Assembly: GCF_016654015.1 (NCBI RefSeq)
Contig: NZ_JAEPWM010000006.1
Location: 1-64,000, forward strand
Length of the DNA stretch: 64,000 bases
Origin: Ramlibacter ginsenosidimutans
GTDB lineage: Bacteria; Pseudomonadota; Gammaproteobacteria; Burkholderiales; Burkholderiaceae_C
Direction: 5' to 3'
The notes below the pieces were generated by a model. It worked only from the letters and a program-made list of their open reading frames with translations, had not been told where the DNA came from and searched no databases. Shown one piece after another: positions 10,798 to 45,777 of this stretch. Each line of letters begins with the position of its first letter. The first letter of the stretch is position 1. Both the position numbers and the translations under genes were made by a program.

Positions 10798-11714
10798 GAC
10801 TGAAGACATTGCTGTGGCGCGAACGCGCCCTGAACTGGCTGTGGGTGCTGTGCGCGTGCGCCGTGCTCGCCGCCTGCGCCGCGCCGCGCCGCGCGCCCGC
10901 CCCGGTGGAAGACCGGGTGGCCGCACGCCATCCGACGGCGGTCGCAACCGAGACGACGCATGCGGGGCCGCTGCCCGGTGCGGAGAATGCAGGCAAGCCG
11001 GGGTACTACACCGTGCGCCCGGGCGACACGCTGCTGCGCATCGCGCTGGAGTCGGGCCAGAACTGGCGGGACATCGCGCGCTGGAACGGACTCGACAACC
11101 CGAACGTGATCGAGGTCGGGCAGGTGCTGCGCGTCGGCCCGCCCCCCGGCGGCACGGCCGTCGCGGTAGCGCCGCCGGCCTCTTCGCCCGCGTCCGCGCC
11201 GGCCCCCGCTGTCGCGGCGCAGCCCCCGGCGAGTGCGGCGAGCAGCGCACCCCGGCCGGTCGCATCGGCGGCGCCCGCGCCCGCGCCGGCGCCCAGCAGC
11301 ACGCCCGCGCCCACGCCGCCGGCGAGCACGGGGCCCGACGACGACATCGCCTGGGGCTGGCCCACGGTCGGCGCGGGCACGGTGCTCGCGGGTTTCGACG
11401 AGCAGAAGAACAAAGGACTGGACATCGGCGGCCGGGCCGGCGATCCTGTGCTCGCAGCGGCGGATGGCCGCGTCGTCTACGCGGGCGCGGGCCTGCGCGG
11501 CTACGGCAACCTGATCATCTTGAAGCACAACAACACCTACCTCACCGCCTACGCGCACAACCAGTCCCTGCTGGTGAAGGAGGACCAGGCCGTGCGCAAG
11601 GGGCAGAAGATCGCGGAGATGGGGTCCACCGACACCGACCGCGTGAAGCTGCATTTCGAGATCCGCCGGCAGGGCAAGCCGGTGGACCCCACGCGGTACC
11701 TGCCGGCGAAGTAG
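10794..11714 (+). CDS. nlpD: NlpD-type murein hydrolase activator lipoprotein
   Basis: NlpD is an outer-membrane lipoprotein that activates the AmiC amidase during cell separation. The 306-residue protein has a signal peptide ending in a VLAAC lipobox with the lipidated Cys at 28, a LysM domain at about residues 70-110 ([14 protein letters not shown] ... [10 protein letters not shown]), a long Ala/Pro linker, and a C-terminal LytM (M23) domain. The catalytic His of the active HxxxD motif is replaced in NKGLDIGG, and the HxH motif is reduced to LHFEI, so the domain should be an activator and not a peptidase, as known for NlpD. It overlaps pcm by ATGA; rpoS starts 2 bases after its stop. Confidence 0.93.
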
Positions 11715-11716
11715 CC

Positions 11717-12727
11717 ATGAAGCGGCGCAACGGGCACGGCTTGCCGGCGCCTGCAGGCGCCGGTCCCGACGCGGACAGTGTTCCCACGGATGAGCCGGAG
11801 CCGCCGGCCAACCTCGAGCCGGTGCCCGAAGTGCAGTTGCGCGAGCTGCCTTCGGACCTCTCGGGCGAGAGCAGCGACACGCTGACGCTGTACCTGCGCG
11901 ACGTGCGCCGCACCACGTTGTTCACCGCCGAAGAGGAATACGCCACCGCGGTGCGCGCGCGTGCCGGCGATTTCCGCGCGCGCCAGTCGATGATCGAGCA
12001 CAACCTGCGGCTGGTCGTGAGCATCGCGAAAGGCTATCTCGGGCGCGGCGTGCCGCTGTCGGACCTGATCGAGGAAGGCAACCTGGGCCTGATGCACGCG
12101 ATCGACAAGTTCGAACCGGAGCGCGGTTTCCGTTTCTCCACCTACGCGACCTGGTGGATCCGCCAGGCCGTGGAGCGCGCGGTGATGAACCAGGGCCGCG
12201 TGATCCGCCTGCCGGTGCACGTCGTGCGCGAGCTGCAGCAGGTGCTGCGCGCGCGCCGCACGCTGGAGAACGATCCGGCCTTTCTCGCGCGGCGGGGAGG
12301 CGATGCCGAAGGCGTGCGCGTCGAGGACGTGGCGGCGCTGCTCGGGCGCGACGTGCACGAGGTGGCGCAGCTGCTCGCGATGGCCGAAACGCCCAAGTCG
12401 CTGGACGCGGTGGTCGACCGCTCGGACGACGAGCACACGCTGGGCGATTTCATGGCGGACGAACTGACGCTCGATCCCACGGGCGTCACCCAGAACCACG
12501 AAGTCGAGCGGCTGCTCGCGGGCTGGATCGACACGCTCACCAACCGCGAGAAGGAAGTGCTGGAAGGCCGCTTCGGCCTGCACCACCGCGAACCCGAAAC
12601 CCTCGAGGTCCTGAGCGACCGCCTGGGCCTCACGCGCGAGCGCGTGCGCCAGATCCAGAACGAAGCGCTGACGAAGCTGAAACGGCAGATGGCGCGCAGC
12701 GGCGTCGATCGCGACTCGCTGTTCTAG
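11717..12727 (+). CDS. rpoS: RNA polymerase sigma factor RpoS
   Basis: RpoS directs RNA polymerase to stationary-phase and general stress genes. The 336-residue protein has region 1.2 ([22 protein letters not shown]), the core-binding region 2.2 and the -10-binding 2.4 ([29 protein letters not shown]), region 3, and region 4.2 with [20 protein letters not shown] as the -35 helix-turn-helix. Length is typical (330-350). A Pro-rich tail of about 40 residues comes first. In enterobacteria the main rpoS promoter lies inside nlpD; the same arrangement is possible here but no match was checked. A dispersed repeat begins at the last base of its stop codon. Confidence 0.96.
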
Positions 12728-12758: not shown

Positions 12759-12817
12759 CCGCTAGCTGCGCGAGTCTTTTCGCCTTGCCCGCTGCGCTCG
12801 TGCAACGACGCCCCGCT

Positions 12818-12852
12818 CCTTCCCCCTTCGGGGGGAAGGCTGGGATGGGGGG
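12818..12852 (-). repeat. REP-like hairpin element (same family as the one inside thrC)
   Basis: CCTTCCCCC at 12818-12826 pairs perfectly with GGGGGAAGG at 12831-12839 around a TTCG tetraloop, and is followed by CTGGGATGGGGGG. Read on the minus strand, the element begins CCCCCATCCCAGCC, closely matching the CCCCCACCCCAGCC start of the element at 42436-42471. It lies between rpoS and the exonuclease gene and could also act as a transcription-end or mRNA-stability hairpin. Confidence 0.7.
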
Positions 12853-12867
12853 CTCCTGATGCGGCCG

Positions 12868-12916
12868 CAGGCCAGGGCATGTTTCGACTGATACAGTCGA
12901 AACATGCCCTGGCCTG
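12868..12916. repeat. Perfect 23-bp inverted repeat spanning a start codon
   Basis: Bases 12868-12890 are the exact reverse complement of 12894-12916, with a 3-base loop ATA. The right arm contains the ATG (12904-12906) and the first codons of the exonuclease gene. In RNA this would form a very stable hairpin with the start codon inside the stem. Confidence 0.9.
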
Positions 12917-33762: not shown

Positions 33763-33776
33763 GGGAAGGCGGACTT

Positions 33777-33886
33777 CCGGAACGCAGAGGACGCAAAGAA
33801 GAACAGCCAAGTTACGCAAAGAAGACATTCATGCATGGAAGTCTTTTTGCGTCCTCTGCGAAACCTTTGCGTCCTCTGCGTTCCGG
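33777..33886. repeat. Dispersed inverted-repeat element built on GCAGAGGACGCA (copy 1)
   Basis: The 22-base left arm (33777-33798, starting CCGGAACGCAGAGG) is the exact reverse complement of the right arm (33865-33886). Inner near-copies of the unit occur at 33848-33860. A second element of the same family is at 45678-45777. It lies in the 332-base gap between rplI and dnaB, which holds no gene. Confidence 0.82.
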
Positions 33887-33887
33887 T

Positions 33888-33944
33888 TGCCCGCTCCCGC
33901 TCCCGCTCTCGCTCCCGCCCCCGCCCCCGCCCCCGCCTTTCCGT
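33888..33944. repeat. CCCGCT/CCCGCC hexanucleotide tract
   Basis: About nine tandem units of the form CCCGCT, changing into CCCGCC, directly follow the inverted-repeat element. It is a simple-sequence tract that could vary in length by slippage. It encodes nothing evident. Confidence 0.75.
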
Positions 33945-45677: not shown

Positions 45678-45777
45678 GGAACGCAGAGGACGCAGAGATT
45701 ACGCAGAGGACGCAGAAAAGATCTTGAAAGGGATTCCTCTGCGTCCTCTGCGAAACCTTTGCGTCCTCTGCGTTCCC
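45678..45777. repeat. Dispersed inverted-repeat element built on GCAGAGGACGCA (copy 2)
   Basis: The left arm from 45678 (GGAACGCAGAGGACGCAGAG) is nearly the reverse complement of the right arm ending at 45777 (CTTTGCGTCCTCTGCGTTCC), with an inner pair of the same unit. It matches the element at 33777-33886 in both arms. It fills most of the 158-base gap between moaE and the Bug protein gene. Confidence 0.82.

Follow-up and report, generated by a model that had tools for sequence, protein, structure and literature searches.

In E. coli, quasipalindrome correction turns an imperfect inverted repeat into a perfect one by copying of the nascent strand (PMC7202029). Template switching also makes and maintains RNA hairpins, giving a perfect stem at once and, later, paired changes of several bases (PMC8794818). 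At yeast double-strand breaks, foldback inverted duplications of 5–34 bp are primed by microhomology and joined to another end (PMC11724301).

The inverted repeat described here, at the start of an exonuclease gene in a 64,000-nt stretch of Ramlibacter DNA (the window), can be compared with each of these systems. It shares a short loop and homogenised arms with the E. coli template switching (PMC7202029), but here the matching is long-term and extends across species, the repeat lies at a gene start beside a repeat element, and it is known from sequence comparison. The perfect stem and multi-base paired changes are like those of template-switch RNA hairpins (PMC8794818), whereas the start of a bacterial single-copy protein gene, one coding arm, mirrored indels and a specific element end are not. 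As in yeast (PMC11724301), short inverted copies are joined to another end, in this case in a bacterium, recurrently at a given repeat-element end, and kept over species divergence. The neighbouring element resembles REP/REPIN, RAYT-associated elements (PMC3116915, PMC3733652) in being a short, GC-rich hairpin scattered through sequence that flanks genes, and differs in a distinctive YTCCTGAWRC end to which the host gene terminus is attached as an inverted copy; the label REP-like rests here on the repeated hairpin and tail, a GTAG/CGTC tag and a RAYT transposase being further criteria for REPs. Perfect inverted repeats overlapping coding sequence are also present in Nematomorpha mitochondria (PMC6649704), where both arms code, while in Ramlibacter one arm is non-coding. 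No report of such a gene-terminus foldback beside a REP-like element was found in the open-access literature.

The features of the locus are listed in Table 1. The palindrome is real and far beyond chance, and the geometry given in the initial annotation is borne out: the arms are complementary at 23 of 23 positions around a three-base loop, ATG lies within the right arm, and the left arm is an inverted copy of the start of the gene. No other short-loop inverted repeat in the window reaches 12 bp; the longest among 20 Markov-simulated windows was 12 bp, and perfect short-loop repeats elsewhere in the same genome reach at most 16 bp (1.89 Mb scanned, contigs C1 and C12). The search of Rfam at gathering threshold gave no match, with sub-threshold hairpin hits only, mostly to microRNA models. 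An assembly artefact was ruled out, since many independently made assemblies contain the palindrome in species-specific versions.

Table 1 Positions of features in and around the palindrome (window coordinates)
Feature	Position	Strand	Remarks
rpoS, upstream neighbour	11711–12727 (stop 12725–12727)	+	Pfam Sigma70 regions 1.2, 2, 3 and 4; ORF list
REP-like hairpin around CTTCCCCCTTCGGGGGGAAGG	12816–12841	+	Query 1–37 has matches elsewhere in the genome; forms a hairpin of its own
G-rich REP tail (GGGATGGGGGG)	12842–12852	+	
Conserved element end CTCCTGATGCGGCCG (YTCCTGAWRC type)	12853–12867	+	Marks foldback-bearing REPs
Left palindrome arm	12868–12890	+	Promoter spacer, start codon and first codons, copied in inverted orientation
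Extended -10 element TGA-TACAGT	12889–12897	+	Hexamer 5–8 nt before ATG in 47/62 rpoS-adjacent orthologues
Loop ATA, 3 nt	12891–12893	none	
Right palindrome arm	12894–12916	+	CAGT, spacer CGAAAC, then ATG CCC TGG CCT G
Predicted 3'-5' exonuclease (DNA_pol_B_exo2), 265 aa	12904–13701	+	Pfam PF10108, E 2.9e-87; start shared with orthologues

The exonuclease gene follows directly after rpoS. In the ORF list, an in-frame stop is followed by ATG 12904 as the earliest possible start, and beginning at the next ATG in frame would cost the protein its N-terminal VLVFDIES stretch, which we take to contain the DxE motif of the exonuclease. A true start farther downstream, named initially as a point that would count against the hairpin, was checked and is not the case: the position is kept across orthologues, and a wrong start codon was ruled out because orthologues begin there and a later ATG would lose VLVFDIES.

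To compare the region before the start codon, we used the upstream sequence of 115 distinct loci, of which 62 are rpoS-adjacent. As claimed before, no ribosome-binding site is present, and a Shine-Dalgarno (SD) sequence was found at none of the 62 rpoS-adjacent loci, that of the window included. The TACAGT hexamer (12892–12897) crosses the loop and belongs to an extended -10 element, TGATACAGT, which together with its neighbours makes a self-complementary core, ACTG-ATA-CAGT. A TANA(G/A)T hexamer stands 5–8 nt upstream of the conserved ATG in 47/62 rpoS-adjacent orthologues, palindromic or not, and 41 of these 47 have the TGn extension; at any other spacing from 0 to 24 nt before ATG it occurs in 0/62. 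Orthologues with another gene upstream (n = 52) have the hexamer in no case and an SD sequence in seven. The known distance between -10 boxes and transcription start points would place the first transcribed base at the A of ATG. Because of the 5–8 nt spacing of the box and the lack of SD across rpoS-adjacent orthologues, it is well supported that the exonuclease mRNA is leaderless and would begin at A12904, which agrees with the leaderless transcript suggested in the initial annotation. This support is independent of the palindrome, since the hexamer is kept in palindrome-free orthologues too. In three diverged Ramlibacter loci without the -10 box (L025, L146, L147), AAGGAG and a GTG start are found, which suggests that leadered initiation has replaced leaderless initiation there.

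Conservation of the palindrome itself, proposed earlier as a check, is partial: it is present in 16 of the 62 rpoS-adjacent loci, 11 strong and five eroded, and missing from the rest. In strong carriers (L001, which is the window locus, L009, L011, L016, L018, L019, L038, L041, L209, L085, and L088) arms are 20–24 bp long with at most two mismatches; L085 and L088, a Curvibacter and a Hylemonella MAG, fall outside the named genus. Eroded carriers are L020, L119, L052, L117, and L217. Elsewhere in the family, an exact palindrome of this type was found in none of about 395 non-Ramlibacter genomes, with related loci in the two MAGs.

Arm sequences differ from species to species, and each left arm follows the gene of its own genome. 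Spacer identity of the left arm is 93.6% against the own genome and 35.7% crosswise, and in a permutation test, which ignores relatedness, 0 of 100,000 permutations gave an own-arm match as good. Codon 2 is copied into the left arm in 14 of the 16 carriers (CCC, TCC, GCC, AGT, AGC, CCG), and spacers of 6, 7, and 8 nt are mirrored in left arms without a bulge. Loci L016, L019, and L217 lie in one part of the tree and have a similar REP-like flank, as would be expected if they descend from a single insertion, with mirrored spacers GCCCCATC, GCCCTTC, and GCCCTC (gene identity between L016 and L019 is 89%). Between L001 and L011, 50 of 53 positions of the element flank are identical, while the arms are different. 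Arms thus match within a lineage and differ between lineages, and multi-base and indel changes are mirrored in both. Such a matched change of both arms, length included, is the signature that copying of one arm from the other would leave. Carriers are dispersed over the gene tree (parsimony requires 13 changes), and their history may be either a single ancestral arrival followed by many losses or repeated arrivals.

Before the left arm come a REP-like hairpin, a G-rich tail, and CTCCTGATGCGG (about 12816–12867), an arrangement absent from the initial annotation. The YTCCTGAWRC-type motif is located just upstream in nearly all strong carriers, usually after a REP-like hairpin and G-rich tail. 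The motif is degenerate in L041 (TTCCATAAC), the upstream hairpin of L009 and L041 is atypical and unlike that of other palindromic loci, and the eroded L052 and L117 have no recognisable element. Scanning 1.96 Mb of the 5.33 Mb own genome disclosed 18 REP-like units of hairpin and tail; the subset read closely lies between genes or at gene ends, i.e. a short hairpin is repeated at non-coding positions. In this 1.96 Mb, both REPs with the YTCCTGA tail have a foldback and the 16 with other tails have none, apart from matches to neighbouring REPs; the link between tail and foldback was both discovered and supported with one set of data.

The sequence GGGGGYTCCTGA exists in two copies in the own genome, at the exonuclease gene and beside ffh. 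Across 12 genomes it was located at 22 sites, 13 REP-linked and nine without REP. All 13 REP-linked sites have a short-loop repeat nearby (arm 8–26), mostly starting within about 17 nt, and 8/9 of the others have no comparable repeat; L262, a site without REP, has an 8-bp repeat that overlaps the motif and resembles a reversed ribosome-binding site. Two tailed REP units are in tandem at L260 (G009:C1:823986), where the 8-bp stem lies between them and not at a gene. Further members of the element were searched for in a limited number of genomes. Outside the genus, matches to the tail are mostly a recurrent GGGGTGAGCGGGTTCTTGA match, and the inspected REP-like hits, L284 and L297, are without foldback. 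Hits of GGGGNYTCCTGAWRCGG at L227 and L228 were discarded as chance matches. By eye, no microhomology was seen where gene and element tail join.

Foldbacks were also found at other genes. At ffh in the own genome, the REP points to the gene, whose stop codon lies in a perfect 15-bp foldback. Aligned ffh ends of other Ramlibacter have arms of 26 bp (L235), 25 bp (L237), and 15 bp (L247), or inner stems (L241, L257). A perfect 20-bp foldback with the loop TACA is located at the start of a kynB-like gene (MPRLWDISPPV), and another foldback at the 3' end of a vWA-type protein gene beside the tail, both gene names being assigned by eye from translation. In addition, an imperfect foldback copy of the tRNA-Arg 3' end lies beside the tail at L261. 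With a variant tail, YTCGTGA, the locus L372 has a 10-bp foldback that includes the stop codon of its gene, and L373 is a weaker case. At the exonuclease and kynB-like starts the REP comes first, then the foldback and then the gene, and at ffh the arrangement is gene, foldback, REP; this opposite order therefore favours a DNA-level cause over a single RNA function. A role of the palindrome in governing initiation, as envisaged at first, is not supported: about three quarters of rpoS-adjacent orthologues are without it, the promoter being kept in most of them, and like palindromes at 3' ends (ffh and others) are opposite to transcription and contain no start codon.

Two observations concern the transcripts of such genes. 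In the kynB-like case L278 (G022:C18:61088), which has a foldback at its start, TACAGT stands 7 nt before ATG, and this gene is possibly leaderless as well. At L274 and L372, foldbacks span the stop codon at the gene 3' end, which would give a hairpin ending the message.

The best explanation, which we regard as probable, is that the palindrome is the foldback junction of a REP-like element, with arms later matched by template switching, an RNA hairpin that is a by-product, and a leaderless mRNA. The element would come to lie between rpoS and the exonuclease promoter. A DNA 3' end would snap back on the self-complementary core of the promoter, ACTG-NTA-CAGT, and copy some 20 nt of the strand to which it belongs, comprising the spacer, start codon, and first codons, and the foldback copy would be joined to the element end ...GGGGG-YTCCTGAWRC. 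Template switching in replication (quasipalindrome correction) would then keep the arms matched, so that changes in either arm, indels too, are copied across, as orthologues indicate. The priming step is modelled on the yeast foldbacks (PMC11724301) and homogenisation of arms on the two template-switching systems (PMC7202029, PMC8794818). The RNA hairpin would be largely incidental and tolerated because the leaderless message begins at ATG, within the right arm; a further effect of the hairpin may be the silencing of transcripts that read through from rpoS. We infer foldback priming, ongoing correction, and a leaderless 5' end, and the sequence comparison suggests that the palindromes are created and repaired by the machinery that copies DNA, not by gene regulation. 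More speculatively, the elements might form a putative mobile REP-like class that inserts by snap-back, its GGGGG-YTCCTGAWRC end joined to a foldback of the target gene terminus, an idea we hold tentatively and consider rather doubtful. Were it true, every insertion would carry an inverted imprint of the adjoining gene, matched later by template switching.

The strongest of the other explanations assumes a selected RNA hairpin that hides ATG in rpoS read-through, so that the exonuclease is made only from the leaderless promoter and compensatory mutation keeps the pairing. RNA folding of the full stem gives about -52 kcal/mol with AUG paired, the message beginning at ATG is not structured beyond shuffles, and arms covary across species, all as such a hairpin would have it. 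Mismatches in the eroded stems, counted by hand, comprise 11 G-U, 2 A-C, and 4 others; the G-U excess (11/17) leans towards RNA pairing and is suggestive, not decisive, given small counts and fixed right-arm coding bases that already favour G-U. We nevertheless find this explanation unlikely. The hairpin is absent from most orthologues, the same element gives palindromes at gene 3' ends, that of ffh among them, mirrored indels and perfection over 22–24 bp are beyond the needs of RNA pairing, and internal initiation would be weak anyway without SD.

Next comes simple quasipalindrome correction for which the self-complementary -10 box served as the seed, with the REP-like element as a passive neighbour. 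The core ACTG-NTA-CAGT could provide such a seed, and the palindrome-free relatives L036 and L044 have 6–10 paired bases around it. At several unrelated genes, however, nearly all strong cases come with the tail motif, and palindromes are lacking at REPs that do not have it; a seed of 3–5 bp also leaves unexplained why the copy frequently ends about 8–10 nt from the motif, which makes this account improbable as well. Regulation of the overlapping promoter by supercoil-driven cruciform extrusion or a palindrome-binding protein is very improbable in spite of the 23-bp arms and 3-nt loop centred on the -10 box, because arm sequence varies between species, arguing against a sequence-specific binder, most relatives with the same promoter lack the palindrome, and palindromes also lie at gene 3' ends with no promoter evident there.

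If the palindromes are foldback junctions kept matched by template switching, they would provide a natural comparative record of this process making a long hairpin, near-perfect over genus-level divergence, at a single-copy protein gene; such template switching has so far been inferred mainly from rRNA genes and reporters. They would also be a warning that covarying stems near genes need not imply RNA-level selection. The junction with the repeat element is possibly of an undescribed type, and the locus adds a conserved, probably leaderless promoter in beta-proteobacteria.

Other repeats were observed as well. Another dispersed family, on own-genome contig C1 (155244, 634655, 803732, 815803; loci L312–L371), has perfect stems of 15–16 bp formed by CACTTTGAAAAGTCGC and variants, with arms that covary between copies, followed by GCCTGAT(C/T)..., and is mostly located just past gene stops. 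In the window, repeats of (GGAC)GCAGAG units in inverted pairs occupy 33769–33894 and 45678–45776, and the similar GCAGAAGACGCAGA follows ffh in other Ramlibacter (L233, L243, L252).
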